From contig JACDET010000004.1 in the NCBI GenBank assembly GCA_013816255.1, forward strand, positions 18,298-52,373: a DNA stretch of 34,076 bases, in the 5' to 3' direction. The stretch comes from Candidatus Levyibacteriota bacterium (GTDB lineage: Bacteria; Patescibacteriota; Microgenomatia; Levybacterales; UBA12049). The position numbers were made by a program, and so were the translations under genes. Numbering within the stretch: position 1 is the stretch's first letter; each line of letters begins with the position of its first letter. A model generated the notes under the pieces. The model did not search any database. It was not told where the DNA came from and saw only the letters and a list, made by a program, of their open reading frames with translations. Positions 1-17,153 of this stretch are shown here, piece after piece.

Positions 1-1280
1 TACGGGAAAACATCTTGGGAAGGGATAACTGCTTTTAATGCGCGTTCTGCAAGTGCTCCGTGACCGATTTCTCGTCGTGAAACAAAGCCGACTCTTCCTG
101 CTTGTCCGAAAGAGTATGGAAGTCCTGAATAGTGGTGGATGTATCTTTTTGTTTCTTCACCTTCAGCTGATTCAATCAAGAGTTCAAGTCGTGGTGAACC
201 AAGAGTCGCGATACTGAGGGCTTGTGTAATGCCTCTATTAAAGAGTGCTGAACCATGCGTTCGTGGAAGAAGTCCAACTGTTGCAGTAATCTCTCGAAGT
301 TCATCAACAGCACGTCCATCTGCGCGCTTTTTATTCTGGACAACATTTGCCCGGATCATTTGGAACATGACATGTTCAAGTGCTTTGCCTAATGATTTTT
401 TATCAATTTCAGCAGTAGCATCTTTTTCTTTTAATGCTTCGTAGACACTGTCAATAAGTTCACCTGTTTCATTGCCACTGCCTTCTTTCTTGACACGTGA
501 TTCAATAAGTTTTTGGATCTCTGCTTTATAACTTTTTTCAAAAACTGCAACGAGTTCTTTATGCGTTGTATCTTGAGGAACTGGGAGTTTTTCTTGTCCG
601 ACTTTTTTCACTAATGCTTCAATTCCTGCAATAACTTTTTGGGTTTCTGCGTGAGCTTTTTCAATTGCGCCTTGGACCACATCTTCAGGAACCTGAAGCG
701 CTCCAGCTTCAATCATGACGGTTTTCTCTTTACTTTGTGAAACAACAATATCAAGATCTGATGTCAGTGATTCAGTCGCTGTTGGATTATAGATGTATCC
801 GCCGCCAGCTGTACTGTATCCCATACGTGTTGCGGCAATTGGACCTTTCCAAGGAATTTGTGAGATTGCAAGTGCTGCTGATACTGCATTGAGTGCTAAA
901 ATATCTGGTTCATTTTCCCCATCAACTGAGAGTACCGTTATAATAACTTGTACTTCTCTCTTGAAACTCTTTGGGAAAAGTGGTCGGATTGAACGATCAA
1001 TAAGACGTCCTGCGAGAATTGCTTCATCTGATGGACGGCCTTCTCTTTTGACCCATCGACTGCCTTTTATTTTACCACCTGCATACAATCTTTCGACGTA
1101 TTCAACTGAAAGTGGGAAATAATCAATATCCGTGCGCTCTCCGCCACCAACAACAGTGACAAGAACAACGGTATCACCGAGTCTTGCTAAAACTGATGCT
1201 GATGCTTGTGGAGCTAATATGCCTGTTTCAAACGTTAATGTTTTTCCTGCAAATTCTACAGGTACTGAAGTTTTATTCAT
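1..1280 (-). CDS. pnp: Polyribonucleotide nucleotidyltransferase (PNPase), 5' part; the 3' end lies outside the window
   Basis: PNPase is a trimeric phosphorolytic 3'-5' exoribonuclease in mRNA turnover. About 426 residues are visible, starting MNKTSVPVEFAGKTL. The N-terminal RNase PH-like domain is clear, with the family block GRPSDEAILAGRLIDRSIRP near residues 85-105. An all-helical linker follows, then the start of the second RNase PH domain (ADGRAVDELREI, THGSALFNRG). The reading frame is open to the window edge, so the second core's catalytic end and the KH/S1 domains are not seen. The ATG at 1278-1280 agrees with the family N-terminus; only a weak purine-rich stretch precedes it. The gene lies downstream of rpsO, the classic rpsO-pnp order. 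A separate promoter candidate sits in the 121-bp gap. Confidence 0.96.
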   Translation of the reverse strand, partial: MNKTSVPVEFAGKTLTFETGILAPQASASVLARLGDTVVLVTVVGGGERTDIDYFPLSVEYVERLYAGGKIKGSRWVKREGRPSDEAILAGRLIDRSIRPLFPKSFKREVQVIITVLSVDGENEPDILALNAVSAALAISQIPWKGPIAATRMGYSTAGGGYIYNPTATESLTSDLDIVVSQSKEKTVMIEAGALQVPEDVVQGAIEKAHAETQKVIAGIEALVKKVGQEKLPVPQDTTHKELVAVFEKSYKAEIQKLIESRVKKEGSGNETGELIDSVYEALKEKDATAEIDKKSLGKALEHVMFQMIRANVVQNKKRADGRAVDELREITATVGLLPRTHGSALFNRGITQALSIATLGSPRLELLIESAEGEETKRYIHHYSGLPYSFGQAGRVGFVSRREIGHGALAERALKAVIPSQDVFP

Positions 1281-1401: not shown

Positions 1402-1671
1402 TTAGTCTTTCAATCCGATCTTTGTCAAAATCCCAGAAACTCTCTTGTCATCAACCTTTTTAAGGAAGTTAATAAGTCTGCGTCTTTTGGCAATCATAGA
1501 GAGAAGTCCGCGTCGACTGTGTACATCGTGAGCATGTGCTTTCAGATGTTCAGCGAGTCTTTGGATTCGTGTTGAAAGCAGTGCGATTTGCACTTCAGGA
1601 CTTCCAGTGTCACCTTTTCCCTGCTGGAATTCATTAATAATTTCTTGTTTTTGAGTCGTGGATAACGGCAT
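1402..1671 (-). CDS. rpsO: 30S ribosomal protein S15
   Basis: This 89-residue protein is full length for S15 and binds the central domain of 16S rRNA as a primary assembly protein. Family blocks are evident: GDTGSPEVQIALLSTRI near residues 20-36, the LxxHLKxHxxDxHSRRGL segment near 39-56, and KRRRLINFLKK near 63-73. The ATG at 1669-1671 has no Shine-Dalgarno sequence. Instead, an extended -10 promoter ends 10 bp before it, so the mRNA is probably leaderless or has only a few leader bases. pnp follows 121 bp downstream. In well-studied bacteria rpsO and pnp are co-transcribed and S15 autoregulates; no pseudoknot-like operator can exist here if the leader is this short. Confidence 0.98.
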   Translation of the reverse strand: MPLSTTQKQEIINEFQQGKGDTGSPEVQIALLSTRIQRLAEHLKAHAHDVHSRRGLLSMIAKRRRLINFLKKVDDKRVSGILTKIGLKD

Positions 1672-1730: not shown

Positions 1731-2102
1731 TTAAGAAACTGTCTTGCTATTGATAAACGTTTTAACTTTGGTTAACTGACTTTCACTGAGCAAAGGGATT
1801 GTAGCCCTAACTGCTTCTTGTAAATTGTCTATTACCACTGCCTTAAAAGCATCTTGCATTTGACTTGGAGTGAAATATTCTTTCAAACAGTCTTCTAAAG
1901 AATGATATTTCTTAGATGCTAATGCAATTTCAAACTTTTTAGCAGTTTCAGGAGAAAGCGTTGCAACTAAGTTGATAACCGTTTGCTGTTGTGAGATGTT
2001 CAAAAATGTATTTACAAACTCATTCTTATCTCCATTATAATCCAGAGCTATTAAAAGTTCAAAAAGTTCCTGCTTAAACGCATGCATACTATTATCTTCC
2101 AT
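1731..2102 (-). CDS. Small all-helical protein of unknown function
   Basis: This 123-residue protein matches no family I recognise. It is predicted soluble and mostly helical, with amphipathic stretches (ELFELLIALDYNG, FVNTFLNISQQQ, LKEYFTPSQMQDAF) and no Cys motif, signal peptide or membrane segment. Its start overlaps the end of the upstream small membrane-protein gene by 11 nt, so the pair is probably translationally coupled. An alternative start is the Met at residue 6. A purine-rich GGGAAG about 5 nt before the ATG could serve as a ribosome binding site, and part of it lies beside a 6-bp hairpin. The pair sits between the nusA-infB group and rpsO. Coding status rests on the overlap, codon-like composition and operon fit. 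Confidence 0.72.
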   Translation of the reverse strand: MEDNSMHAFKQELFELLIALDYNGDKNEFVNTFLNISQQQTVINLVATLSPETAKKFEIALASKKYHSLEDCLKEYFTPSQMQDAFKAVVIDNLQEAVRATIPLLSESQLTKVKTFINSKTVS

Positions 2103-2376
2103 TCGAGCTTCCCTGGTTAGTACCAGGAATACTTACAATAGCGGTTACCCCTTCAACAATGACTCCAGTCAAAAATACAACTCCTTGTTTTTCGGGCGGA
2201 AACATCGCTGCAGCCATTCCAGGAAGTAAAAGTGCTGTACTCCCAGCCAGCAAGGGATGATGTGCTACATTATATTTGACATTTTCCTTAGACCGATCCA
2301 ACCATGCTTTTAGCCGTCCTGTTTGAGGATTTTCCGGCTGACTTGCTTGCTCTGGGATGGAATGAAATTCAGTCAT
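2092..2376 (-). CDS. Small protein with one or two hydrophobic helices, unknown function
   Basis: The 94-residue product has a polar N-terminus (residues 1-35, rich in Gln, Pro and Lys), then two hydrophobic stretches: about 40-60 (HPLLAGSTALLLPGMAAAMF) and about 66-84 (GVVFLTGVIVEGVTAIVSIP). It ends with a short polar tail and has no signal peptidase site. A membrane hairpin with both ends in the cytoplasm is plausible. I do not recognise the family. It lies 37 nt after the DHH-like gene and overlaps the following helical gene by 11 nt. A GATAAT box 4 bp before the ATG hints at its own leaderless promoter. Confidence 0.72.
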   Translation of the reverse strand: MTEFHSIPEQASQPENPQTGRLKAWLDRSKENVKYNVAHHPLLAGSTALLLPGMAAAMFPPEKQGVVFLTGVIVEGVTAIVSIPGTNQGSSNGR

Positions 2377-2413: not shown

Positions 2414-3415
2414 TTATACTTCGCTTGAACCTTTGTAGACTTTTGGTGTTAACCAGTCTAATGGAGGTGCATCATCTTGCGGTTGCTCTTCTTTTGGTGC
2501 AGGAGCTGGAGCCTGCGTCTGAGGAGCAGGTGTCGGAGCTGGTTGCGGTTGTGGTCGCGCTGGTGCAGGAACGGGAGCTTGCGCTTCAGGTGCTGGGCGT
2601 GGTTGCGGAGCTGGTGCAGGACGAGGTGCTGGTCGCGCTGGTACATTTTCTTGCTGTGGTTGATCGTATCGGGACGGTTGTTGACCGCTTACTCGCAAGG
2701 CTCCACGTTTCATTAAGAATGCTGAAACTTCAAATGCAAGTGAGCTTGTTTTTGGATCTTGGAAGTTTTTTGTCGAGTACATAATACCGCTAAGCAAGTT
2801 TTGTGCAGCATCTTGTTCAATTGAAAAACCAAGTGTCAAAACAATATCTGCAACATGTTCACTGACGGATGACGCTTGTGGCGCGACAAGGACGATGTCT
2901 CCGTATCCTTGGTTATTTGGTTGGTTATCAATGTTAATGACACTGACATCTGATAATTTCTGTGCATCAAAGACATCACTGACGTCATCAAGCTGTGCTG
3001 CACCAATAGTGATAAGTAAATCAATTGTGCCACTTCCACGGGTATAATTGACATCTTTTTCATCAAAAGAAAGACCTTGCTCTGAAGCTTTGACGATAAT
3101 ATTGAGGAAGTTATTCTCAAGAGTGTATGATACTTTCTCGATTTCACCTTCTTGGTATGGGAATGATACGACAAGATCTCCTGCATCGCCACCAAACTTA
3201 CGTGCAACTTTGTTGATACCGACAAGGGAAGAAATTTCGACTATAGGATCTGTAGGACTTGCGACACTCACTTTCTTATTTGCATTTTTTAGGAGTAGGT
3301 ATAGTGCAAGGGCTGCACCCATTTCATCAATTGAAGGTTCACGTCCGACAGCAATCCCAATACTGTTACTTCGTCCGATTGCATCTTTTAATTTTTGTAA
3401 TGTTGTCTTATCCAT
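2414..3415 (-). CDS. Degenerate DHH-family (NrnA-like) protein with Pro/Ala-rich tail
   Basis: The 333-residue product keeps the DHH/NrnA fold but not its active site. Fold markers: PSIDEMGAALALYLLL at about 27-42, VINIDNQPNNQGYGDI at about 159-174, and ASSVSEHVADIVLTLGF at about 181-197 followed by GIMYSTKNF. In active enzymes these regions read as a D-x-D motif, I-D-H-H-P-x-N and G-I-x-x-D-T. Here the first motif has a single Asp, DHH has become DNQ, and the last Asp is Ser. The DHHA1 domain is replaced by about 80 residues of Pro/Ala/Gln-rich sequence. The ATG at 3415 is chosen over an upstream TTG because the conserved fold begins just after it. It follows infB by 48 nt, the place where nrnA sits in many nusA-infB operons. 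A binding or scaffold role is inferred. Confidence 0.88.
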   Translation of the reverse strand: MDKTTLQKLKDAIGRSNSIGIAVGREPSIDEMGAALALYLLLKNANKKVSVASPTDPIVEISSLVGINKVARKFGGDAGDLVVSFPYQEGEIEKVSYTLENNFLNIIVKASEQGLSFDEKDVNYTRGSGTIDLLITIGAAQLDDVSDVFDAQKLSDVSVINIDNQPNNQGYGDIVLVAPQASSVSEHVADIVLTLGFSIEQDAAQNLLSGIMYSTKNFQDPKTSSLAFEVSAFLMKRGALRVSGQQPSRYDQPQQENVPARPAPRPAPAPQPRPAPEAQAPVPAPARPQPQPAPTPAPQTQAPAPAPKEEQPQDDAPPLDWLTPKVYKGSSEV

Positions 3416-3463: not shown

Positions 3464-4939
3464 TTAACTATGGGATAGTATCACATCTCCGACCTGTATG
3501 TCAAGTGGTAGGGCAGGAATCAGGCCAGCCTCATTACCCTTTTCAACTTTTGAGGTAGAATTCTTGCCAACCCGAAGTGAAGTGATCGTCGTTTCGCCAA
3601 TGATTTCGTCTCCACGAAGAACACGTAAATGGTCACCTTTTGCGATTCTGCCATCCATAACCGAGATACCAAAAGCAAAGGTTTTTTCAAAAGGGAACTT
3701 AGCGAGCACTTTGGCGGTACCAAAGATTTGTTCCATTTGTGACTGCAGTTTACCTTCTAATGCATCTTTTACTTCATCAAGCAGTTCGTAAATGATTTCA
3801 TAATTACGTAAAAGCACTTTTTCAGTAAAAGCAAAGCTGATCACATCAGGCTTCACTTTAGTATTAAAACTCAAAAGAATACTTCCCGTAGATTTCGCGA
3901 GGAGCACATCAGCCTCACTTACTTCACCGGTTTTTTGATAGACAATTTTAATACCCTCGGGGAACGCATTGATGATCGCCTCAAGTGAACCTTGTGAATC
4001 AGCCACAAGTACCACTGATATACCTTTGTGTTCTACTTGAGGACGATAAACTAATTCTTTTTTTAGAGCAATCTCACCTGTTTCGGGGATTGACGCTTTC
4101 GCATTCGCTTTATCGCTAATAATACTTCCAACGGTTGGTACTATTGTAAATCCCAAAATCTCAACTGCATCTCCAACTGTCGCAGATTGAATCTGCTTCC
4201 CGGCTGTACTCAGTAATGTTCTGATTTTGAAGATTTGTCCATCAATTTGCACTTCTTCACGCACAGTCATACTACCGTTTTTCACAATTGCTGTTGCTTT
4301 TGGCCCAGCTCGGTTATCAAGTTTTGATTCGATGACAACAGCTGCAAGTGGTGAAGTGCTTGAAACATCTTCAGTGTACGTTGGAATCTTGTGCATATCA
4401 AACATAAGAAGGATTAAATCAAGTAACTCTTTGATGTTATGATTTGTCTTCGCTGACACTTCAATGACGGGGACATTTCCACCATACTCTTCAAGTTCAA
4501 TTTCCTCAGTTGCAAGCTCTTGCTTCACTTTGTTTGCGTTCGCAGTTGGAAGATCAGATTTGGTTAGGACGACAATATATGAAGTTTTAGCTTCTTTGAG
4601 CGCTTTGATACTTTCACGGGTTTGTGGTTTTACGCCGTCCCCTGCTGAAACAACAAGTAAACTTAAATCAGCGGCTTGCACACCACGACCCCGCATCTGC
4701 GTAAATGCTTCGTGACCTGGTGTGTCAATAAATGTAATCCAACGCTCTTGCCCTTCATGCACAATCTCAATTGCCGATGCACCAATTTTTTGTGTGATTC
4801 CGCCTTTCTCACGATCAGCGATTGAACTTTGGCGGATTGCATCAAGAAGTGTAGTTTTACCATGATCAACGTGACCAAGTACCGCGACAACTGGCGGAAA
4901 ATGCGTGATTGAATTTATCTTTTTTTCTTCTTTTGCCAT
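3464..4939 (-). CDS. infB: Translation initiation factor IF-2, minimal form
   Basis: This GTPase delivers initiator fMet-tRNA to the 30S subunit and promotes subunit joining. The 491-residue protein begins almost directly at the G domain, with GHVDHGKT at 22-29. The switch region GGITQKIGAS, DTPGHEAF (G3), TKSD (G4, usually NKxD) and SAKT (G5) follow, then domains II-IV. The long N-terminal region of E. coli IF2 (about 890 residues) is absent. Near the C-terminus the fMet-binding C2 domain has EAGL where most bacteria have ECG(I/L). The start MAKEEKK at 4939 is preferred to an upstream TTG in the same frame. No Shine-Dalgarno sequence is visible; AT-rich sequence abuts the ATG. nusA lies 95 nt upstream. 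Confidence 0.97.
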   Translation of the reverse strand: MAKEEKKINSITHFPPVVAVLGHVDHGKTTLLDAIRQSSIADREKGGITQKIGASAIEIVHEGQERWITFIDTPGHEAFTQMRGRGVQAADLSLLVVSAGDGVKPQTRESIKALKEAKTSYIVVLTKSDLPTANANKVKQELATEEIELEEYGGNVPVIEVSAKTNHNIKELLDLILLMFDMHKIPTYTEDVSSTSPLAAVVIESKLDNRAGPKATAIVKNGSMTVREEVQIDGQIFKIRTLLSTAGKQIQSATVGDAVEILGFTIVPTVGSIISDKANAKASIPETGEIALKKELVYRPQVEHKGISVVLVADSQGSLEAIINAFPEGIKIVYQKTGEVSEADVLLAKSTGSILLSFNTKVKPDVISFAFTEKVLLRNYEIIYELLDEVKDALEGKLQSQMEQIFGTAKVLAKFPFEKTFAFGISVMDGRIAKGDHLRVLRGDEIIGETTITSLRVGKNSTSKVEKGNEAGLIPALPLDIQVGDVILSHS

Positions 4940-5034
4940 AATATATTTTGGGAGAAAATGAGGCAATGTGAGGCTAAATTATGAGGTTTATGCCAACGTA
5001 TACTGTATAACAATCTCAGTTCTCATAGCGTCTT

Positions 5035-6090
5035 TCATTTCTCACTTTTCTCAACCGAGTCTGACTCAGTTTTTTTTGTATCGTTATCACTAGCAACGTC
5101 TGACGTTGCCTCTTCTTTAGCATTCTCACCCGAGTCTGACTCGGTTTTACCTTCAATCTCGATTCTATACTTGGTTAACTTGTATGCTAAGCGGACATTT
5201 TGCCCGTCTTTACCAATTGCCAATGAAAGTTCATCTTGTGGGACGAAAACATGTGCAACTTTCTCTTCTTCGTCGACTTCAACACGGACGTTCTTTGCAG
5301 GTGAAAGTGCTTGTGCGATGTATGTTTCGATGTTATCTGACCATTGGATAATATCAATCTTTTCAAGACCTCCAAGCTCTTGAATGATTGCCTGCACGCG
5401 AACACCTTTTTGTCCGACACATGAACCGACAGGATCAATACCAGGTTGGCTCGAGAAAACTGCAATCTTCGCTCTATTACCAGGCTCACGAACGATAGTT
5501 TTGAGCTCGACACTGCCTTGTGCAACTTCTGGAACTTCGCGCTTGAATAAGCCTTCAATCAACCCATTATGTGAACGTGAAACAATAATCTCTTCACCTT
5601 TCATACCTTGGCGAATTTCTGAGAGATAAAATGCCAAACGCTGATTTAGATGATACTTTTCATTCGAGATTTGTTCTGAAACAGGCATAATTGCTTCAGC
5701 TTTTCCTATATCAATAATGATGTTCGGACCTGCAAAACGCAAAACCATACCATTCACAATTGAACCAATCTTCACACGGTAATCGGTAAAGATAGCTTCT
5801 TTTTCTTTCTCGCGGATCTTTTGCAGAATTACTTGCTTTGCAGTTTGTGCAGCAATCCGGCCAAATCCCGGAGGCGTAACGTCGCGATCATTTTCAAAGA
5901 TTTTTGCTTCTCCGGTATTTGGATCAAGTACAGCCCGATACTCTTCAACTTCAACACCTGGATGATCTTTGCGGTAAGCCGCCAAAATGGCGTTTTGTAC
6001 AGTATCAAGCACGACATCAACGTCAACTCCGCGTTCGGAGGCAACTTGATTGAGGGCTAATGCGAATTCACTGCGTTGTATAGCTGGCAT
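5035..6090 (-). CDS. nusA: Transcription termination/antitermination factor NusA
   Basis: NusA binds RNA polymerase and nascent RNA and modulates pausing, termination and antitermination. The 351-residue product has the N-terminal polymerase-binding domain (1-115), an S1 domain (about 115-185, GSIVNGMVLRFAG), KH1 with GSCVGQKGVRVQAI near 225-240, and KH2 with LSLAIGKDGQNVRLA near 290-305. It lacks the acidic C-terminal repeats of E. coli and ends in a charged Ser/Glu/Asp/Lys tail encoded by three palindromes. The ATG at 6090 (MPAIQRSEF) is chosen because an upstream in-frame start would overlap a good promoter. Only 7 bp separate the -10 box from this ATG. infB follows. Confidence 0.97.
   Translation of the reverse strand: MPAIQRSEFALALNQVASERGVDVDVVLDTVQNAILAAYRKDHPGVEVEEYRAVLDPNTGEAKIFENDRDVTPPGFGRIAAQTAKQVILQKIREKEKEAIFTDYRVKIGSIVNGMVLRFAGPNIIIDIGKAEAIMPVSEQISNEKYHLNQRLAFYLSEIRQGMKGEEIIVSRSHNGLIEGLFKREVPEVAQGSVELKTIVREPGNRAKIAVFSSQPGIDPVGSCVGQKGVRVQAIIQELGGLEKIDIIQWSDNIETYIAQALSPAKNVRVEVDEEEKVAHVFVPQDELSLAIGKDGQNVRLAYKLTKYRIEIEGKTESDSGENAKEEATSDVASDNDTKKTESDSVEKSEK
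5054..5144. repeat. Three short palindromes with a shared GTCTGAC core in the nusA tail
   Basis: Three inverted repeats lie in 91 bp: ACCGAGTCTGACTCAGT (5054-5070, one wobble pair), GCAACGTCTGACGTTGC (5093-5109, perfect) and CCGAGTCTGACTCGG (5130-5144, perfect). Each is centred on GTC-T-GAC. They encode the E/S/D-rich end of NusA, with T-E-S-D-S twice. In the nusA mRNA each can form a stem. None is followed by a U-run on the coding strand, so they are not ordinary terminators. Confidence 0.6.
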
Positions 6091-6097
6091 AGTGCCT

Positions 6098-6126
6098 AGT
6101 ATACCAGATAGAGGAATAACCTTCAA
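6098..6126 (-). promoter_or_regulatory. Leaderless promoter of nusA
   Basis: TTGAAG (6121-6126), a 17-bp spacer and TATACT (6098-6103) read leftwards, with 7 bp between the -10 box and the ATG. The expected start site falls on or next to the A of ATG. The 50-bp gap between the surface-protein stop and nusA holds this promoter and almost nothing else. Confidence 0.6.
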
Positions 6127-6140
6127 CCACAAAGAGTAAT

Positions 6141-9077
6141 TTACGGAGCGACTTCTTCAAGAGTAGTTCGCTGCAAACGAATAAACTCCGGGAGGTTAAG
6201 AACAAAGTCTAAGCGCTGTGTCAATTGCAGCGCAGGTGTGGAAGCATTATTTCCACAAAGATCTCGATTGTTCTGTAATGATCCACCTTTTCTTGCTGCG
6301 TTCACAATAAGCGTTCCTTCTACATTGAGTCTGAGATCTGAGCAGTTATTGTTGCTCTGCATAATAAATGATCGGTCAGTACTAAAAATACCTGATAAAT
6401 TAGCTATTATCACGGGAGCTGGACTACCAACAGTTGATGAAACGATAATATTCCCTGAAGCTGAAAAAACTGATGAAGAGGTGACAGGAGTAATTATATT
6501 GCCTCGAAGAGTGAGGTCCCCATTTATAAGGAAAACATATTTCCTGTTTGGTAGAAATGTGTGCGTATTTAATAGTACACTACTATTGGATTGATATACT
6601 CCCTGAGGTAAATTAACAGGAAGCGTGCAATTGGAAACTGTACAAACTGTGGAAAGATTTATAGGCGGAGTATCTGTCGTTTGTGCTTTTGCACTAAGAT
6701 AGGCATAGGACGAAAAGATACCTCCAGTATTTGGTGGAGTATAAACCTCTGGATATGCTGAACCCCCAACAACTTGGTTTGTAGAGGATGCATTACCAGG
6801 GGTAAATAATGGCGTTCCACTCCCTGTAAAGACAATTCCGGGAGACGTGCAGGAAGTATTGGTCGTCAGTGCTGATTGTCCGACGGGAACTGGATTGGTA
6901 ACGCCAGCATCATTACGGAAATTGCCACAAACCGACTGAATCCAAGGTAAAGAGTTATTAATGCCAAAATTAAGATTTGCGATATTGAGTGCACATGTTG
7001 CTCCTTGCGCCCCATTTGTATTACACGAAGGACCGACTGTTACTTGAAACGACGGTGGAGGACCATTTCGCGGGTATGATATGAAATATCCTATTGGAAG
7101 TGACGTATAGGAAACAGTCACTACCCCTGCGCTGAGATTATTTATCTTGTAGGTCCCCCCCGGACCAGTTGTAACATTTCCCGTACTTGCAGCAATACCC
7201 GGTGTCCCTGCATAGTTACGTTCACCTGCATCTTTTATACCGTTACCATTCTCATCAATAAACACTTGGCCATCAATGGTATATCTCTGCGCATTACCGA
7301 AATTAATAGTACTTATATTTCCATCTGTAATGGCAATGTCATATGCACTGTTTGTTGTAGCGGACCATCCAGGTTGGACGACTTGGGCTACCCGATAGGT
7401 GTTGGTACATAAACCTGTAAAGGTATAATTACCATTTACGCTAGTAACTTTTGAGCGCGCAGCACCTCCTGAGAGCTGTACTGTCCAACCGGCCAGTCCT
7501 TCTTCACCTGTATCTTTTAAAAGATTGGTATTTTTGTCATTATAAACTACACCTGTAATCTTGCCAGTCGGGAGAATCTCGGTAGAAATATCTCGAAAAA
7601 TGGTACTGAGCGTTCCATCGGTTGGATCATTATAATATTTACCTCCATTTGTTGCAGCAATTTGCTTTAGAAAATCCTCGTTAAAAGACTTACCTCCCTC
7701 TCCAATTCCAATAGAGTAGTAAACAGTGTCGTATGCGTTAACACCAACAATTATCTCATCCATTGCAGCATTTTCTGCAATATCATCATCGACATACCGA
7801 CCATTAGAAGTGACTATTTCGTTTGCAACCCCATCAGTCATAAAGATAACTTTTTTCTGCGCGTTTTTATTTCCATTTTTCTTTAATTCCTCATTTATCA
7901 AATTGGCACCACATTCATGGCATGTTCCATTTACAGTATCTATTGCACTTATTGCGCTTTTTACTTGGGCAAAGTTATTGGTTAATCCGACGGTTATTGC
8001 TGTGTCTGGATTGTCCGGGAAATTTGCACTTGATGAAAATTCTATAAGCCCGATCTTGGCTGAAGGAAGATCCGTCGCTATGATGTCAACAAATTCGTTT
8101 GCAGCTGCTTTGGCTACATTTATTTTGGAATCTCCTGTTGTAGGGTCAGTATTATCCATACTATCTGAATTATCAATAGCAATAATAATATCCGCAGTCC
8201 CAGCAGTACAAACTCCAGCAGCTCCTGTTGTTGACTGTTTCACACCAAAATTAACAATCCGACTAGCCGTCAAGGTAAATGTATTTGTATTCGGCGTTGT
8301 TGACCGATAACCCGGAGGAACTGTCACAGCAACCGTATATTTCCTCCCTGTAACTGTAGTAGGGAAAGAATAATTACCGCTCGTATCTGTTTGTGTCTGC
8401 AAAGTTGCTGAACCTGAACTGATCAATTTTACGGTCGCATTAACAAACGATGTGTCTGATCCATCTATCTTACTGTTTGCATTATTATCGACAAAAACAT
8501 TTCCTGTAATTGCGAACCGAGAGGTACTTCCTGTATAGGTAATATTTTGCAACGTCAATGTACTTCCAGAATTATTTAAATCCACACCTGATAGCGTACT
8601 GAAGTTTCCATCCCAGCCTACAGGTGTAATTATCGAAAAACTATGGGGATTGGTACTGCAATCAAATGAAGATTGTCCATAAAAATATGCCATATAATCA
8701 TCAGTTGTCCCGTCTAGATTCGTATCTATTCTTTTGGTTAACTGCTCGTCCCTGTTCTGATTCCACTCTTCATCGTTATCATCATTACCATTTTGATTGC
8801 CATCACTGTTCTCTAAGTTATCCCACGTTTCAAAGTAATATTCTCCATCTGCATTGGTTTTTGCATATCGCCATTGCACGCCATTATTATCCCATCCCTT
8901 ATCATTCCATTTCACCCAAACTCCTGCAATGGGAGCGTTTGTTCCTTGCGTCACAACTTTTCCTTTGACATTCTGTGTTACTGCCTCTACTTGTGACGGA
9001 ATAGTTATGCTAAACGCAGTAAAAACCAAGAGCGTCACAAATATATGTAAAAGTATTTTAATTGATAATAATTTCAT
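6141..9077 (-). CDS. Large secreted SdrD-like/VWA-domain surface protein
   Basis: The 978-residue product starts MKLLSIKILLHIFV, a typical signal peptide ending near residue 32; this ATG is preferred over one 33 nt upstream. A carboxypeptidase-regulatory-like beta domain (about 35-190) comes first, then an SdrD B-like domain (about 190-280, FVDNNANSKIDGSD). A von Willebrand A domain follows (about 296-500) with an intact MIDAS DNSDS at 302-306 and FMTDG near 413. Two more SdrD B-like domains (from about 505 and 600) carry Ca-binding loops such as NDKNTNLLKDTGE and DENGNGIKDAGE. The C-terminal third is beta-rich with several Cys and ends EFIRLQRTTLEEVAP. No LPxTG motif or C-terminal membrane helix is seen. 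The gene overlaps the parvulin gene by 20 nt, implying coupled translation. An adhesin or cell-surface structural role is likely. Confidence 0.93.
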   Translation of the reverse strand: MKLLSIKILLHIFVTLLVFTAFSITIPSQVEAVTQNVKGKVVTQGTNAPIAGVWVKWNDKGWDNNGVQWRYAKTNADGEYYFETWDNLENSDGNQNGNDDNDEEWNQNRDEQLTKRIDTNLDGTTDDYMAYFYGQSSFDCSTNPHSFSIITPVGWDGNFSTLSGVDLNNSGSTLTLQNITYTGSTSRFAITGNVFVDNNANSKIDGSDTSFVNATVKLISSGSATLQTQTDTSGNYSFPTTVTGRKYTVAVTVPPGYRSTTPNTNTFTLTASRIVNFGVKQSTTGAAGVCTAGTADIIIAIDNSDSMDNTDPTTGDSKINVAKAAANEFVDIIATDLPSAKIGLIEFSSSANFPDNPDTAITVGLTNNFAQVKSAISAIDTVNGTCHECGANLINEELKKNGNKNAQKKVIFMTDGVANEIVTSNGRYVDDDIAENAAMDEIIVGVNAYDTVYYSIGIGEGGKSFNEDFLKQIAATNGGKYYNDPTDGTLSTIFRDISTEILPTGKITGVVYNDKNTNLLKDTGEEGLAGWTVQLSGGAARSKVTSVNGNYTFTGLCTNTYRVAQVVQPGWSATTNSAYDIAITDGNISTINFGNAQRYTIDGQVFIDENGNGIKDAGERNYAGTPGIAASTGNVTTGPGGTYKINNLSAGVVTVSYTSLPIGYFISYPRNGPPPSFQVTVGPSCNTNGAQGATCALNIANLNFGINNSLPWIQSVCGNFRNDAGVTNPVPVGQSALTTNTSCTSPGIVFTGSGTPLFTPGNASSTNQVVGGSAYPEVYTPPNTGGIFSSYAYLSAKAQTTDTPPINLSTVCTVSNCTLPVNLPQGVYQSNSSVLLNTHTFLPNRKYVFLINGDLTLRGNIITPVTSSSVFSASGNIIVSSTVGSPAPVIIANLSGIFSTDRSFIMQSNNNCSDLRLNVEGTLIVNAARKGGSLQNNRDLCGNNASTPALQLTQRLDFVLNLPEFIRLQRTTLEEVAP

Positions 9078-9960
9078 ACTGGGTTTTTTGACCTTCGTAC
9101 CAAGCGTCAAAGCTATTTATTGGCGTCTCTGCTGTCTTTTGTTTCACTTGTGCAAACATATACAGTGCATCTAGCTCCACATTTCTTTCACTATCCTTTG
9201 CTTTGGCTAAATAGATTGCTGAAACTTCACCTACATTTAATCTGCGTATACTAGTATCAAAGGCAGGATCAAGCGTTATTGCTTCATCTTGTTTTACTTT
9301 AAAAGGCAAAAGCGCGTTTGTTTTATATGATGTAGGATCAATTTGCGCCAAACTTGTATCATTTCTTATAGCTTCAGCAGCTCGCTCAATTGTCATTTGT
9401 TTATTCTTTACAGCCTGATGGAGGGAGGTGATTTTGGAAAGTGCAAGTGCTTTTCCGGCTTCAGGACCAATAGGTGCGGGAATTGTATTCCCAAACCAAA
9501 TAGAAATAACGTTACCTTCCAAGGCGTACGATTTCTCTTCAATACGATCCTTTACACCTTCTACCATTTGTATTCTTTTCAGATAATCTTTCGTTGCACT
9601 ATCATAAACTGATGCATCGAGCGTTATAAGTCCTTCTTTAGCACCTGCCTGGAGAATAATTGAATCTTTGACGATTTTTTTAAGAAGAAGCTGCTCTCGG
9701 ATTATATCAGCTTGCGGTGGATATGAAGTCAGCTCCAAATCTAAATCATTCTTATAGATACGTTCCTCGCCTACTCTTGCAATAATATCATTTGGTTTTG
9801 CAGTATCTAAGTTTGTTGGTACAGTAACAGCCGTATCTGCCGGTGCTGCTTTTTTTGTAAAGAACGTTGTTTGCAAAATATAACCAACCATAAAAACGAC
9901 GATAAGACCGAAAACGACACCAAGTAATAATTGTACTTTTGTATTGTTTAAAATATTCAT
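9058..9960 (-). CDS. Membrane-anchored SurA/PrsA-like parvulin-type chaperone
   Basis: The 300-residue product has a single N-terminal membrane helix (about 11-31) and an exported remainder. The region from about 55 (ARVGEERIYKNDLDLEL) resembles the start of SurA/PrsA N-domains, V-x-G-x-x-I-x-x-x-D-L. Residues about 165-290, with NVGEVSAIYLAKAKDSERN, resemble a divergent parvulin prolyl isomerase domain. I see no clear conserved isomerase residues, so a pure holdase role is possible. Its ATG overlaps the stop of the membrane-bound Clp gene by 4 nt (ATGA), and its end overlaps the VWA protein start by 20 nt. Context suggests that it helps fold the large surface protein outside the membrane. 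Confidence 0.82.
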   Translation of the reverse strand: MNILNNTKVQLLLGVVFGLIVVFMVGYILQTTFFTKKAAPADTAVTVPTNLDTAKPNDIIARVGEERIYKNDLDLELTSYPPQADIIREQLLLKKIVKDSIILQAGAKEGLITLDASVYDSATKDYLKRIQMVEGVKDRIEEKSYALEGNVISIWFGNTIPAPIGPEAGKALALSKITSLHQAVKNKQMTIERAAEAIRNDTSLAQIDPTSYKTNALLPFKVKQDEAITLDPAFDTSIRRLNVGEVSAIYLAKAKDSERNVELDALYMFAQVKQKTAETPINSFDAWYEGQKTQYEIIIN

Positions 9961-12368
9961 TTCGTTACCTCCGTATGTAACGCCCCTGTACCATCAATTG
10001 AAAACGCGACTGTACAACCCCGGTCAATCTCTTTCGTTAACCGCTTTTGGGCAATCATATCTTCAACTGTATCTTGCAGATATCGACGCAGTGGTCGTGC
10101 TCCAAAGTCTTGGTCGTATCCTTCTTTGGTAATCTTCTCAATAACAGCCTCATCAAACGTAAGTGTAATATCTTGTTTTTGCATCGTCTTAGTCAATGCA
10201 TCAAGCATCAATTTCGTCACAGCAGTAATTTGCTCAGGACCAAGTGGTTTGAAGGTGACCACGTCATCAAAACGGTTAAGTAGTTCCGGCTTAAAGATAC
10301 CTTTTGTTTGAAGTTGCTCCAAAAGGCGCTGCTCAAACGCTTTATTAATAGCCGTTCCTTTTGCAACTTCCTCACGGATAAATTCAGATCCAGCATTGGA
10401 TGTAGCAATAATGATCGCATTACGAAATGATACGGTTGTTCCTTTATTATCAGTCAGTCGCCCATCATCGAGTACTTGCAGAAATAGGTTATGAATTGAT
10501 GGATGTGCTTTTTCAAATTCATCAAGCAGAATAAGTGAAGCAGGATTATCATGAACCTTATCAGTCAATTGTCCTCGCTCTTCTCCTTCTCCAGGTGCAG
10601 CACCAAGAAAACGCTTTAACCCGTTCTCATCAGTATATTCACTCATATCAAGCCTGATCATTTTCTCCTCGCCTCCATAATAGAACTGCGCTAATGCTTT
10701 GGCAGTTTCTGTTTTTCCCACACCCGTTGGGCCTAAGAAAAGAAATGAAATTGGACGTTCGCTTGTGGTCATACCTGAGCGGACTCTACGCATTGCTTCA
10801 CTGATCGCTGTAACTGCTGCATCTTGTGCGATAACACGTTCATGCAACTTATCTTCCAAATGCAACAATAAATCAATCTCCTTACCAGTTGGCAAAGCAA
10901 TTGCTACGTGACTTGTCGCTTCAACTTTTTTAACAACATCTGCTTCAAGTACCATTTTGCGGTGTGTTTTCTCAAACGTTGGGCGCTCTTTTTCTTGCGC
11001 AATAGCATTGGCAACCGTCTCCAGAAGTGAAATGGCACTTCCCGGAAGCACTTGATCTTGATAAAAACGGTTTGCTAGCTCAACAGCACTGACTAACGCA
11101 CGATAACTAATAATTACTTTGTACCGTTCTTCGATCTTGGTTGCTTCCCCAAGTGCCATCTGCACCGCAGTTTCCTGTGTAATCTCGCGAAGATCGACTA
11201 TTGTGAATGCTTCACGTAATGGATTTTTTTCCATATAAGTTTTATAATTTCCGGTTGTTATTGTGGCAATAACAGGTACAGATCCGCTCTTCAGATACGG
11301 AAGCAATGCACCGGAAAGATCGATCCCGTAAGACGTTGCGCCTAATATATTTTGGAAATCAGGAATATATACCAACACATCATTGGCATGTGATATCTCG
11401 GCAATAATCTGCTGCAGACGTGATTCCAAATCACTTCTATTGCCAGCTCCCGCAGTCAAAGCACCGACGAGTAACTGAAATACTCTTTTGTGATCAAGAT
11501 AGCCTCCAATACTGCCTGTAAAACTATGGTATGCCAGTGCACGCACCAAGTTTTCTTTGCCTGCGCCAATATCTCCAACAAGGAGTACATTATTATTTTC
11601 AACTTTTGTTAGACCTTCAAGCATTGTTTTGAATTCTGCTTCTCTCCCGCTAATTAATGGTTCAGTCCTGAGTGCATAATTTGTAAATTGTGCGGTATAT
11701 TTCCTCGTTTCAGGTGTCCAACCAGAAACAAGTGCTTCACCGATGCCACCGCCGTTGAAATGTACTCTGAGTTGTTTTGGCGTTTCTTCATCAGGCATAT
11801 CAAGCCGTACCCATGAGAGTATGTTGTACAGATCAGCAATTTTGAGCTGTTTGGCGAAAAGTATTTTTGTGTCATCTTCAATTAAGAATAAATAGGCTAC
11901 AAAAACATCAAGTGTCGTCACATATTTGCCTTTAAAGGTTTGCGCCGTCTGGAATGCGCTTTGTGCAAGTAAGTGCTTTTGGACTTCTGTGACGACAATG
12001 TCGCGACTTGTGATGTTCGCTTTTTGCATGACGAGTTTGATTTGAGGATAGGTAATCAGTTTGTGGATAAGTCTTGACGTATTTGGTTCGGTAACAAAGC
12101 CATAGAGGGCGGGAAGCGTAAACGACTCGTACATATGTTCTTCTTTATTTTTCGCGACAGGAATTGTCGGCATTGCACGGCTTATTTTGTAGTGAAAAAA
12201 CACCTCAAACATAACGAGTATATTGAAGAGAAAAAGAGCAATTTTTGGCGAAATATTATTTGCAACTTGATACAAAACTAGCGCAAACAAAAGCATAAAC
12301 GCGACAAGACGGATACTCCGAATAAGAGCAGTTCGATAAAAATGATAGAGTCGAGCAGATAATTCCAT
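9957..12368 (-). CDS. Membrane-anchored Clp-like double AAA+ ATPase with degenerate first ring
   Basis: The 803-residue product has two N-terminal membrane helices (about 20-36 and 42-60), a Clp-N-like helical region (about 95-190), and two AAA+ modules. Module 1 is degenerate: its P-loop reads GDIGAGKE (265-272), with Glu in place of Ser/Thr, and the Walker B region reads VLVYIPDF (331-338) without the catalytic Glu. Module 2 has GPTGVGKT (546-553) and LILLDE (612-617), so it should hydrolyse ATP. Where Clp proteins have the G-Y-V-G pore loop, it reads GAAPGEGEERG. The family's [ILV]-G-[FL] ClpP loop is not seen. The ATG at 12368 is preferred over an in-frame TTG 21 nt upstream. It follows a small membrane-protein gene by 2 nt. 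A membrane-localised remodelling role is inferred. Confidence 0.93.
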   Translation of the reverse strand: MELSARLYHFYRTALIRSIRLVAFMLLFALVLYQVANNISPKIALFLFNILVMFEVFFHYKISRAMPTIPVAKNKEEHMYESFTLPALYGFVTEPNTSRLIHKLITYPQIKLVMQKANITSRDIVVTEVQKHLLAQSAFQTAQTFKGKYVTTLDVFVAYLFLIEDDTKILFAKQLKIADLYNILSWVRLDMPDEETPKQLRVHFNGGGIGEALVSGWTPETRKYTAQFTNYALRTEPLISGREAEFKTMLEGLTKVENNNVLLVGDIGAGKENLVRALAYHSFTGSIGGYLDHKRVFQLLVGALTAGAGNRSDLESRLQQIIAEISHANDVLVYIPDFQNILGATSYGIDLSGALLPYLKSGSVPVIATITTGNYKTYMEKNPLREAFTIVDLREITQETAVQMALGEATKIEERYKVIISYRALVSAVELANRFYQDQVLPGSAISLLETVANAIAQEKERPTFEKTHRKMVLEADVVKKVEATSHVAIALPTGKEIDLLLHLEDKLHERVIAQDAAVTAISEAMRRVRSGMTTSERPISFLFLGPTGVGKTETAKALAQFYYGGEEKMIRLDMSEYTDENGLKRFLGAAPGEGEERGQLTDKVHDNPASLILLDEFEKAHPSIHNLFLQVLDDGRLTDNKGTTVSFRNAIIIATSNAGSEFIREEVAKGTAINKAFEQRLLEQLQTKGIFKPELLNRFDDVVTFKPLGPEQITAVTKLMLDALTKTMQKQDITLTFDEAVIEKITKEGYDQDFGARPLRRYLQDTVEDMIAQKRLTKEIDRGCTVAFSIDGTGALHTEVTK

Positions 12369-12370
12369 AT

Positions 12371-12697
12371 TTATAAAAACAGTAACCAAATTGTTGCAAA
12401 CGGTAAAAAGATATATCCGATAAAGACAGTTACCTCAAAGAGGAGCAAGAGTATAAGCATGAGCAGATTCGCTAGAATTAGCCACGTCTTTACAAACATT
12501 CCTACAGCAACAGAAAAGGCAACAAGCCCTTGCCTATATTCATTCTTTATTGGCTTAAAGTATGTTTTGAGAAAAAGTGGTAATGAAAATAGTTGCAGGA
12601 ATGATCTATTGAGTGAAAAAAAGAACTTTAAAAGAGCCAACGGACTTTCAAAGAACCAAAACTTGAGAAACATTACAGGCAGGACTAAATAATTCAT
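12371..12697 (-). CDS. Small polytopic membrane protein
   Basis: The 108-residue product is strongly hydrophobic. Likely helices span about 5-25, 30-45, 57-72 and 75-105, with a basic loop (KTYFKPIKNEYRQG) between the first and second halves. I do not recognise the family. Its stop lies 2 nt before the start of the membrane-anchored Clp-like ATPase, so it leads a tight four-gene unit (this gene, Clp-like, parvulin, VWA protein). It may be an assembly partner of the ATPase. A palindromic repeat element occupies most of its leader. Confidence 0.82.
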   Translation of the reverse strand: MNYLVLPVMFLKFWFFESPLALLKFFFSLNRSFLQLFSLPLFLKTYFKPIKNEYRQGLVAFSVAVGMFVKTWLILANLLMLILLLLFEVTVFIGYIFLPFATIWLLFL

Positions 12698-12851: not shown

Positions 12852-15800
12852 TTACTCAATCTCGTCCTGACGGGTTTGTGGGGCGACGTAATTGATACGT
12901 CTAAATGATGCTGGAATACCTGAGTAATTATATGGGCTTGCAGTTGGTTGCATAGCAGCACCATTTGATGCGACGCCACTTGTCGGAATGCTGTCAACAG
13001 CAGATGGAGCAGGCGGTGACTGGAACACAGGCCCAGTTGCTTGTGCTGGCGGAGGCATTTGTGATGGTGCACTTGGTGTTGTAGCCGGATACGCAGATGG
13101 CGTTATGACAGATTGATCAGTCTGTGTCGGAGCTGGTGTCATTGGTGCTGGAGCAGATGCATCAGTAGTCACAGGTGTTTGCGGCATTTCTTGTGCTACA
13201 CCTGTTGGTGCTGCTGGGGTTTCGCTTGGAGACACTTGACCCAATGAACTTGGAACTGCTGATTGATCATCAGAAGGTTGTGCTAGATTTGGGTCTGTTG
13301 GTGCTGGCTGTTCATCAATTGGAGCAGGAGTTCCATTTCCTGTGCTAGCATCAGTTGCTGCTTGATCTGGAGAGCCGTCTGCACTAGCTTGTCCGTCTGC
13401 TGGTGAAGTTGCAGATTCATCACCTGCTACTGCAATCCCTGCAGTTTGCATGACCAAAAGCGCGATTTCATCTTTTTTAACACATGCTGCCTGCATCTGA
13501 TCCATAAGGCTTTGCATTTCGTCCATTGTTGCTGTCTCTTTGAAAGCTAGAAGTGCTCCTGCAAGCAAATTACCCTTTCCATTTGCCTCGTTCACTTTGG
13601 ATTGAACTCCAGTATAAAGCTCTCGCTCTTGAGGCGTTTCAGCAGTCATTGGACTCATAACCAAAAGTATGGTTTGTTTTAATTTTCGCAGCGGCTGATT
13701 TTTAATTTCACTTTCAATCACCTGCAATATCTCTGTTGCCAATGGATCGCCAGCTTCATTTGCCCTTTCAAGCTGTACTTTTATCTGCATAATGTCATCA
13801 TCTGATGTGATGTCAGTAATTGCAAGAATAGCTGTAGCAATTTCATTATTTTCGGCTTTTGCTTTAGAAATCTTGTCATACAGAACGCTGAACTTTGCTT
13901 TATTTTCTTTGTCCGCGAGATAAAGAGGATTGATAAGTTGTTTCAAAACATTCTTGAATTTCGTCACAGGTTCTTCTTCATGCGCTGCTTCAGCTTCGTC
14001 CACAACTTCTTTATTCACTGCAATAAGGATTTCCTCGGCCAAACTATCTCCGTCATCTTGTGCTTTTTTGAGCTCAATCATAAGCTCATCAATCGCTGCT
14101 TCAGGTGTTGTCTCATTGACGGCTAAGATTTTGACAGCTAAAGCATTACCGCGTTGACTTTCAGCATTTAACTTCTCATGTAATTCCATGAATCTGAGCT
14201 TTTTATCTGGCTGTTTGATATCATTTGGGTGAATAATCTCGAGTAAAATCTTCTTAAGCTTTAGTGAGGCTTGAATTTGCTGTGCCATACTGGATGCGAG
14301 ATCCATGATTGCAACGGCCAATGAGTCGCCTTTTGCTTTTGCCTCTTCAATTTCTTTTCTGAGGGTTTGAATCTGTTTGAGATCTGTTGAAACGGTAACT
14401 TCCAAAACAGCACTTGCCATTTTATTGTTTTCAGACCGGGCTTGAAGAAGCTGATCGTGGAGTACAATAAACCTTTGGCGGTCGTTAATACTTACAACAC
14501 TTTCAGGATTAGCGAGTTGCATCAGCACTGTTCTGAATTGTTCATCACTCAGTGGAGCCATAGTTGCGGCAGCTCCGCCTTTGTTGAAGATAAATTCATT
14601 GGTATTGTCACTGTAATCAATAACAATCGTGTCCCCTGGTACAAACTTCTTCGAAATTATTGCCAATGCAATTGGGTTTTCAATAGCTGTTTGGACAAGT
14701 CTTCTCAGTGGTCGCGCACCGTAAACAGGGTCATACCCATCTTTTGCAAGCTGTGCAATAGCTTTTTCGGTAATTTGGAGATTATAGCCTTGTTCTTTGA
14801 GGAGTTTTGCGGTCTTTGCAATAGCAAGCCTGGCGATTCCGGCCATGTGTTCAGGCTGGAGTGGTTTGAAGATAACAACCTCGTCAAAACGGTTTAAAAG
14901 TTCGGGACGGAAGAATTTAATCAATTCTTCTTTGACTTTCAGTGTCATATCTTTAAACGTTCTTTCAAATTCTTCAGGAGATTTCTTAGCTTTTGGATCA
15001 ATTGTACTTAAGAACTGTTGAATTATCGCACTTCCAATGTTACTCGTACAGATAACAATTGTATTCTTAAATGAAATTGTATTGCCTTTGTTATCGGTCA
15101 AGCGACCATCTTCAAGGAGCTGTAACAAGACGTTAAAGACATCAGGATGTGCTTTTTCGATTTCGTCAAACAATACAATTGAATACGGCTTCTTCCGAAC
15201 TGCTTCAGTCAATTGTCCACCCTCTTCATATCCGACATAGCCTGGAGGCGCACCAATCAGCTTGGCAACTTCGTGCTTTTCCATATACTCTGACATATCA
15301 AGACGAGCCATAGCATCATCTTTACCAAACAAGAGTTCCGCAAGTGTCTTCGCAAGTTCAGTTTTACCGACACCGGTAGGACCTAAGAAAACAAAAGATG
15401 CAATTGGACGGTTAGCCGCAGCCAAACCAATTCTTCCACGTCGTACAGCTTCAGAAACAGCACTCACTGCTTGCTCTTGGTCAATCATGCGGTGGTGGAT
15501 CCGGTCTTCAAGCTTGAGAAGCTTTTCACTTTCATCTTCAGTAAGCTTGGTAATAGGAATACCAGTCCATGCACTTACTACTTTTTCAATATCAGCCTTT
15601 TTAATCGAAGTATCTCCTCCACCTCTATTGCCTGCGTCAATTTGCAACTTTACCTCAGATGCTGCTTCATCAAGAAGATCAATTGCCTTGTCTGGCAAGA
15701 AGCGCTCACCAATATATTTTTTTGATAATTTGACACATTCCTTCAATGCATCATCAGGAATTTGAATTCTGTGAAACTTTTCATACTTTGGTCTGATAAC

Positions 15801-17153
15801 TTTAAGCATCTCAAAAGCATTTTCTTCACTTGGTTCGTCAGCCTGTACAGGTTGGAAGCGTCGTTCAAACGCTTTATCTTTCTCAAAGTTCTTGCGATAT
15901 TCAACAGTCGTCGTCGCACCAATAAGTTGGAAATGTCCACGAGCTAAATGAGGTTTGATGATATTGGCCGCATTCATACCTTCACCGTCACCAGTTCCCA
16001 TCAAAGCATGGATTTCGTCAATAAAGAGGATAATCCGATTGTTGGAACCAAGCACTTCAGTAATAACGCCTCGCAAACGTTCTTCAAATTCTCCGCGGTG
16101 ACTCGCACCTGCGATGAGGGACGCGACATCGAGTTGAAAAATTCTTTTGTCTTTCAGATCTTTTGGCACAGAACCTTGCACAATCTTTTGCGCCATCCCT
16201 TCAACCAATGCTGTTTTACCTACACCAGGTTCACCAATGATAATAGGGTTATTTTTGGTTCTTCGAAGCAGTACATGCACCATGCGGTCAATTTCTTTGT
16301 CGCGTCCTGAAACAGGATCAAGCCTTCCTGCTCGAGCTTCTTCTGTCAAATCTACTCCATATTTCTCAAGTATTGTCTTTTTACCAAAAGTGCTCTTTGG
16401 ATCTTTTGAAATTTTTTCAACAAGCGTTTCTTTTTTCAGATTATGTTTGGTGAGATATGCTGCAGTTGTATAGCTTGGGTTGAATAATACAATTAAGATA
16501 TCCTCAGGAGCTATAAAATTTGCCCCACGCATTTTGGCATCTCGATATGCTTGATCAAATACTTCTTGCGCAGTTTTGCTTAACGTTGGCTGTCCTTTAT
16601 AGACACCCATTTTTTCATTTGCTTGTATTTCCTTTGAGATCTGTCCGCCATCAGCTGCCATCTCACTGAGCATCGCATAAAGCTGTTCATCATAAAGAAG
16701 CCCGAGAAGCACTTGATCAGGTTCAATATTTTGTTGTTTTATGCGCTTGGTTTCTTCTTGTGCATGTGTGAGTGCTTGCGTCGCTCGTGGATCAAGGTGG
16801 CTAAGCGCTGAAAGATCTGCCTGCCCTGCAGCAGGATGTGTTGGATCTGGAGTTGCGCTAGGCGTCCCTGGTGCAACTGGTTGACCGCTTACTGGTGCAT
16901 TCGGATCAGCTGGAGGCGTACCTGCTGGTGCAGCGGCCACATTTGGATCAGTCGGTGGTTGCGAACCGTCGGTTGGATTTTGTTCAACCGGCTGCGCACT
17001 AACAGGTGCATTTGGATCAGCTGGCTGACCATTTATTGGTGGAGCAGATGGATCAACAGGGGCTCCCTGTACAGGTTGTGCTGGGGTTTGCGCCTGGGGA
17101 TCCTGTTGCGATGGATCTTGGTCTTTTTTCTGATTAAAAATATTTCCAAACAT
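12852..17153 (-). CDS. ClpA/C-type AAA+ unfoldase with Pro-rich N-terminal and repeat-bearing C-terminal extensions
   Basis: This 1433-residue protein has a Clp core. Residues 1-113 are Pro/Gln/Ala-rich, with [10 protein letters not shown] repeated. A Clp-N domain covers about 114-260. Ring 1 has GEPGVGKT (307-314) and ILFIDE (375-380); ring 2 has GPTGVGKT (591-598), IVLFDE (659-664) and an intact pore loop GYVG (638-641). The linker between rings is short, as in ClpA/C, without the ClpB middle coil, and no clear [ILV]-G-[FL] ClpP loop is seen. Beyond the core (about 862), four repeats of about 90 residues (865-1235) match those of the VirB6-like neighbour, followed by a Pro/Thr/Gln/Ala-rich tail. 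Usual ClpC proteins are about 810-850 residues. A leaderless promoter directly precedes the ATG. Confidence 0.96.
13450..14565 (-). repeat. Four ~90-residue helical repeats in the Clp C-terminal extension
   Basis: Four units follow the second AAA+ ring. Each has a first helix with [IL]-x-x-[IL]-x-N/S-P, a D-R-x-x-F-x-x-L-H type second helix, a G-N-x-L-A-x-x-I-L turn, and A-x-x-x-G-D-x-L-A-x-x-I-L. The best examples are [10 protein letters not shown] with [10 protein letters not shown], and [10 protein letters not shown] with [10 protein letters not shown]. The fourth unit is most divergent. The same unit occurs five times in the VirB6-like protein upstream. Confidence 0.8.

Follow-up and report, generated by a model that had tools for sequence, protein, structure and literature searches.

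Genetic Organization of the Locus

The DNA that we analysed, a stretch of 34,076 nucleotides referred to throughout as the window, belongs to a genome (G000) that is available in 78 contigs with a completeness of 79.86%. It carries on its minus strand a gene cluster with the order nusA-infB-DHH-fold gene-two small ORFs-rpsO-pnp. The gene that we focus on (2414..3415) starts with an ATG codon at position 3415, ends with a stop codon at positions 2414-2416, and encodes a putative DHH-fold pseudoenzyme of 333 amino acids. Directly upstream lies infB (3464..4966), the gene for IF2, which is itself preceded by nusA (5035..6132), while rpsO (1402..1671), encoding S15, and the start of pnp (3..1280), a PNPase gene named from its sequence that runs off the window, are positioned downstream. 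The nrnA gene commonly sits in the infB operon. An earlier sequence-only reading of the window had assigned the DHH-fold gene to this nrnA position, and its placement between nusA and infB on one side and rpsO and pnp on the other bears this out. The IF2 gene is found upstream of the DHH-fold gene at each of the 43 loci that made up our first locus set from the class to which the window belongs.

Several other genes are present in the window. The two short ORFs between the DHH-fold gene and rpsO (1731-2102 and 2092-2376, minus strand) have no Pfam match, and among the loci compared tblastn finds them solely at the window's own locus (L001), so that they are apparently lineage-specific. Adjoining nusA is a reading frame (6141-9110, minus strand) whose translation reads as a large, repeat-rich and probably secreted protein. 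Judged likewise from their translations, two Hsp100/Clp-like AAA+ proteins are encoded farther along on the minus strand (9957-12389 and 12852-17153), the second of which has long Pro-rich ends, and a large membrane protein (17248-21048) is encoded close to them.

Fold and Domain Layout of the Protein

The DHH-fold domain comprises residues 1-241 (2693..3415, minus strand, as are all features of the gene given below) and contains an insert of about 50 residues (about 74-126; 3038..3196; borders approximate) that includes beta strands. It is followed by a Pro/Ala/Gln-rich linker (residues 242-316; 2468..2692), which is fast-evolving and modeled with low confidence, and by a conserved C-terminal motif (residues 317-333; 2417..2467) with the sequence PPLDWLTPKVYKGSSEV. 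The Pfam DHH model matches the protein with an E-value of 1.7e-5 and 25.5 bits at a cut-off of 28.1, a score that varies considerably within the class, from 48.4 bits for the protein of locus L145 to no match for that of locus L282. By sequence, the best relatives of solved structure are NrnA chains (E 3e-5). An AlphaFold model built with 60 sequences has pLDDT values mostly above 90 for residues 1-241 and around 60 for the tail, and it can be superimposed on the nanoRNase structure 3w5w (Z 27.3, rmsd 1.7 Å), on TM1595 (5o4z; Z 27.1, rmsd 1.9 Å) and on Rv2837c (5jju; Z 26.3, rmsd 1.9 Å), in each case over 184-188 residues that fall entirely inside model residues 1-245. The NrnA-type fold signatures noticed at the outset are thus real, both by sequence and with a structural Z-score of about 27.

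The NCBIfam model NF053633 gives 27 bits with the window protein at a curated cut-off of 350. This cut-off is no discriminator here, since even a ligand-complete NrnA protein of the class (locus L060) reaches only 123 bits and no control genome passes it. The DHHA1 domain is not found in the window protein up to an E-value of 10, and the GGGH motif is also absent from its sequence. The proposal that a Pro/Ala/Gln tail has taken the place of DHHA1 therefore holds for the loss of the domain and for the composition of the tail, but not for the last 17 residues, which form the conserved motif. The beta insert is common to relatives in other classes of the phylum; neither of the true NrnA proteins that we aligned (loci L059 and L060) has it.

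Active-Site Positions

The DHH motifs are numbered here in our own usage. Motif I corresponds to residues 24-33 (3317..3346), motif II to residues 135-141 (2993..3013), motif III to residues 161-165 (2921..2935) and motif IV to residues 210-218 (2762..2788). According to the available text of the study on Bacillus NrnA (PMC5593865), its active site is made up of Asp24, Asp26, Asp80, Asp156, His20, His103, and His104. Six of these seven positions are changed in the window protein: in motif I, Gly24 and Ser28 replace His20 and Asp24; in motif II, Gly138 replaces Asp80; in motif III, which reads IDNQ where I-D-H-H is expected, Asn164 and Gln165 replace His103 and His104; and in motif IV, which reads GIMYST for G-I-x-x-D-T, Ser214 replaces Asp156. 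The Asp of the DHH motif itself is kept as Asp163. The only one of the seven positions to be retained is Asp30, the equivalent of Asp26, which is a metal-1 ligand in NrnA. Hence, the changes reported from the sequence-only reading for motifs II, III, and IV were all recovered, whereas the contention that the ligands are lost in every motif goes too far: of the D-x-D of motif I the first Asp is gone and the second is still there.

When the protein is aligned by profile with DHH phosphodiesterases of solved structure, the motif positions are in register, and TM1595 gives the same register. The residues mutated in the structure whose title calls it an inactive D80N D154N mutant align to Gly138 and to the motif IV position, both of which are lost in the window protein.

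Distribution and Ligand Loss Within the Class

The best named relatives are encoded by metagenome-assembled genomes labelled Candidatus Levyibacteriota or Levybacteria, followed by Gottesmanbacteria, Roizmanbacteria, and Woesebacteria; judging from these labels, we take the class to be of the Microgenomatia type. Among 60 related genomes, 56 match the first 244 residues of the protein, or 55 when genome G048, in which the match is a separate true NrnA, is left out. A family profile that included the tail matches 181 of 187 genomes of the class. We left out three of these (G048, G343, and G464), whose profile scores lie in the range of true NrnA paralogues and which may possess NrnA only; this brings the count to about 178, an approximate figure as the remaining matches were inspected singly only in part. 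We then examined 129 class matches (30 automatically retrieved loci and 99 fetched ones) and dropped one true NrnA (locus L296), which leaves a set of 128 members that includes the window's own copy and under-samples the lowest-scoring matches.

A complete metal-1 site is present in none of the 128 class members, and the Asp of motif IV (position 214) is likewise found in none of them. At the remaining positions the loss is graded: His at position 24 is kept in 21 members, Asp at 28 in nine, Asp at 138 in 39, Asp at 163 in 82, His at 164 in seven and His at 165 in 36, with some class lineages retaining both Asp138 and His165. Asp30 ranks first in conservation across the family (127/128). Conservation is also high elsewhere in the domain, at Glu186 (120/128), Asn206 (121/128), and Lys47 (120/128), which indicates that the domain is under constraint, and it extends to Thr215 (108/128), Asn217 (94/128), and Phe218 (107/128) in the former motif IV. 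The loss of a complete site is thus shared by all class members examined, and we infer that it happened once, early in the history of the class.

Asp30, kept throughout, makes a one-metal or other activity compatible with the sequence, and one may therefore envisage an altered or residual enzyme that operates with one metal or a different chemistry on Asp30, Asp163, and Glu186. The near-invariance of Asp30 and Glu186 would fit, as would the fact that, in an alignment of 128 rows scored at seven positions, 32 rows retain four of these and one retains five (the row with all seven is the true NrnA of locus L296). Such an enzyme would have to do without a complete metal-1 site in any class member, with an Asp163 that is present in only 82 of them, and without a recognizable substrate domain. 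We searched the class alignment for catalytic residues at shifted positions, which would have refuted the pseudoenzyme reading. No conserved substitute ligand appears among the 128 members, the best His column reaching 36/128 and the best Cys column 68/128, and the only columns with at least 70% Asp, Glu, His, or Cys are D30, E93, D132, E186, D202, E229, and D320. We consider a residual enzyme improbable.

The erosion of the ligands, of DHHA1, and of the Pfam score might also be taken as signs of a functionless relic in decay. This is hardly credible for a gene that is present in about 178 of the 187 class genomes sampled and whose domain and motif evolve slowly. The protein is 78% identical to that of a same-genus gene in the domain and 94% in the motif, but only 29% in the linker. 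In a comparison with genome G029, dN/dS is about 0.21 for the domain (dN 0.25, dS 1.20) and about 0.24 for the motif (dN 0.25, dS 1.05, from 17 codons), while it is about 0.65 for the linker (dN 1.20, dS 1.84, a high dS value); dS was not computable against genome G001. No internal stop codon occurs in any of the 56 matches listed from the search of the 60 relatives, and one occurs among the matches listed from the 187-genome profile search. The gene is a member of a conserved family and not a peculiarity of one genome. Collectively, the lack of complete sites, the low dN/dS of the domain, and the wide distribution are in keeping with the initial suggestion of a retained pseudoenzyme that would serve a non-catalytic role.

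The C-Terminal Motif and the Linker

The C-terminal motif, missed in the sequence-only reading, is the best clue to function. It conforms to D-W-L-x-P-K-[IV]-[YF]-[KR]-[GS]-S in 110 of the 128 class members and to a relaxed form in nine more, and among the 110 proteins with the strict motif, 76 have their Trp residue exactly 13 residues from the end. Both the motif expressions and the DNA pattern used below were composed after the sequences had been seen, and 80 named loci that had partly been found via the motif itself were excluded from the motif counts. Nine class members lack even the relaxed motif; five of them (loci L264, L279, L282, L285, and L289) belong to the family that we designated f11 and carry Lys-rich tails instead, a difference that could help to trace the partner of the motif.

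At the DNA level, the motif pattern is found in 47 of the 60 relatives, once per genome, while a reversed control pattern has no matches there. In a sample of 286 genomes of the phylum it is present in 16, namely in 15 of the 24 genomes of the class and in one of the 262 genomes outside it; the reversed control pattern matches two genomes of this sample (G122 and G145), which counts against the specificity of the motif. The single positive genome outside the class (G216) carries the motif on a contig (G216:C73; loci L037 and L192) that also encodes IF2 and NusA. The DHH-fold protein of this contig groups inside the class on our tree, and we therefore regard the contig as mis-binned or transferred.

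Two simple explanations of the motif were considered. That the tail docks on the core of the same molecule is made less likely, but no more than that, by two AlphaFold models with different linker lengths, neither of which is confident in the motif (pLDDT about 50-60); this judgement is based on pLDDT alone, for a type of weak cis contact that AlphaFold can miss. A general sorting signal was rejected because every one of the 47 genomes with the pattern has a single match, and 46 of these matches lie at the DHH-fold gene; the 47th, in genome G026, is on another contig than the DHH-fold gene, which is cut there by the contig end. The tail has no match in the PDB up to an E-value of 10.

Relatives Outside the Class

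Within the phylum sample, 239 of the 286 genomes match the query, a count that includes other DHH proteins. For a survey of insert-bearing proteins we hand-picked 35 genomes from the query and profile matches, 29 of them from outside the class, and scored in the latter the equivalents of D24, D26, D80, D102, H103, H104, and D156. These 29 proteins have the same insert as the class proteins. Twelve of them keep all seven positions together with the GGGH motif, while the other 17 have lost at least one ligand and, in every case, GGGH. In three of the 17 (loci L310, L316, and L318) the loss is confined to GGGH and a single scored position, and these proteins may still be active. A motif of the class type is absent from the last 20 residues of all 29 proteins. 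As in the class operon, S15 is encoded nearby at seven of the 29 loci, and all seven encode ligand-complete proteins; the shared operon slot is thus shown for these, not for the degenerate ones.

In a quick tree the insert-bearing proteins, those of the class included, separate from the two true NrnA proteins, with one long branch. Mapping the complete and the degenerate state onto this tree gives five changes, of which only two are forced by well-supported branches. Although such a count by itself does not separate gain from loss, we read it as repeated ligand loss across classes, with two changes as the safe minimum. The possibility that the degenerate copies outside the class are one ancient paralogue was discarded, as there is one insert-bearing gene per genome in the 29 genomes; genome G216 carries its class-type gene besides its insert-bearing one. 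All 29 genomes also have a shorter match that lacks the insert and is putatively of the NrnA type. A single-protein scan of viral contigs yielded no relatives.

Exonucleases and Cyclic Dinucleotides

The NrnA family model matches only the DHH-fold gene in the approximately 80% complete genome G000. Orn scores above the cut-off in none of the 60 relatives, and none of the five weak partial matches is in G000. A DHHA1 domain is found in 49 of the 60 relatives, as a single match in 46 of these and mostly in frames of 500-650 amino acids, a size that fits RecJ; G000 has one such match, in a frame of 617 amino acids. An intact NrnA or Orn elsewhere in this incomplete genome was therefore not encountered in a search that covered these two families. 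By our count from the listing, 42 of the 187 class genomes possess an NrnA-type match with an E-value of 1e-13 or better. None of the 14 genomes of the same family does so (a weaker match, 2.5e-10, lies at another locus of genome G399), and all 14 carry the DHH-fold gene. This raises the question of how cells of the class finish RNA degradation, as neither a strong NrnA-type match nor an Orn above the cut-off turned up in G000 and the same-family genomes, some of which are incomplete, in the search for these two families.

The distribution of these enzymes bears on the idea that the DHH-fold protein, inactive itself, pairs with a catalytic DHH protein, either true NrnA or RecJ, and regulates it. 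NrnA is described as a homodimer in the available text of PMC5593865, and the 42 genomes with an NrnA-type match would offer a partner. For NrnA, the 14 same-family genomes that hold the DHH-fold gene and no such match speak against it, and we deem a regulatory partnership very unlikely.

Binding of cyclic dinucleotides, one of the roles initially suggested, has to be divided according to the ligand. The DAC domain is absent from all 60 relatives, which disfavors c-di-AMP. GGDEF domains are present in 28 of them, including G000 (G000:C75:3358-3792), and this leaves c-di-GMP possible; their presence does not track the DHH-fold gene. These findings count against a wider proposal, in which the remodelled site would bind, but not cut, short RNA or a mononucleotide and the tail would signal this to translation. 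That proposal draws on the strong conservation of Asp30, Asn206, Thr215, Asn217, and Phe218 at former motif positions in the absence of the ligands, and on the RNA-handling functions of the named operon neighbors. The DHHA1 domain with its GGGH motif, the substrate binder of NrnA according to the available text of PMC5593865, is not found in the protein, and we regard a non-catalytic reader of RNA or nucleotides as unlikely, albeit worth keeping in mind.

A Proposed Non-Catalytic DHH-Fold Adaptor

With DHH-DHHA1 phosphodiesterases such as Bacillus NrnA (5j21), TM1595 (5o1u), and Rv2837c (5jju) the window protein has the DHH fold in common (Z about 24-27), along with the order of the motifs and, given the usual location of nrnA, the operon position. 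It differs from them by the six changed active-site residues, by the DHHA1 domain that is not found, and by the addition of the insert and of a disordered tail with its C-terminal motif. The explanation that we favor, and hold to be rather probable from the sequences compared, is a non-catalytic adaptor derived from a nanoRNase, with a tail that would dock on a partner. By comparison, all class members examined are without the two-metal site and without the DHHA1 arm that a nanoRNase-like ancestor had. The folded core with its beta insert would have been retained as a binding platform, and the long disordered linker would present the conserved C-terminal peptide for docking in trans on a conserved partner. 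Three observations suggest docking in trans: the peptide is conserved, genomes that carry its DNA pattern do so a single time, and its confidence is low in both AlphaFold models, which contain no other protein. Counting against the adaptor are the graded loss of the ligands, the retention of Asp30, and the nine class members in which even the relaxed motif is missing.

With the neighboring genes as our guide, the protein might act in the initiation of translation, on the small ribosomal subunit, or in RNA decay that involves PNPase; the operon neighbors may share a process with the protein, adjacency being no proof. More tentatively, and with clearly greater doubt, the family may constitute a class-wide, nanoRNase-derived core factor. 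Its DHH platform would be non-catalytic, and its peptide would dock on IF2, on PNPase, or on the ribosome during initiation and thereby link translation to RNA decay, catalysis having been lost several times independently in the phylum.

The logic of such an adaptor would be comparable to that of eukaryotic Cdc45, which is described in the available text of PMC5484177 as a DHH protein with mutated metal-binding residues that has no catalytic activity and serves as a subunit of the CMG helicase. The likeness, drawn from this description, lies in the DHH fold and in the mutated metal ligands; unlike the window protein, in which DHHA1 and a helical stem are missing, Cdc45 keeps DHHA1 and functions in replication. 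A DHH protein without catalysis is therefore already known from Cdc45. By title and abstract, no work on this DHH family was found among the literature matches listed. If our favored explanation is true, the protein encoded beside infB would be an unrecognised bacterial translation or RNA-turnover factor, shared by the majority of the genomes sampled from this class of small-genome bacteria, and its conserved short peptide could be used directly as bait for the partner.
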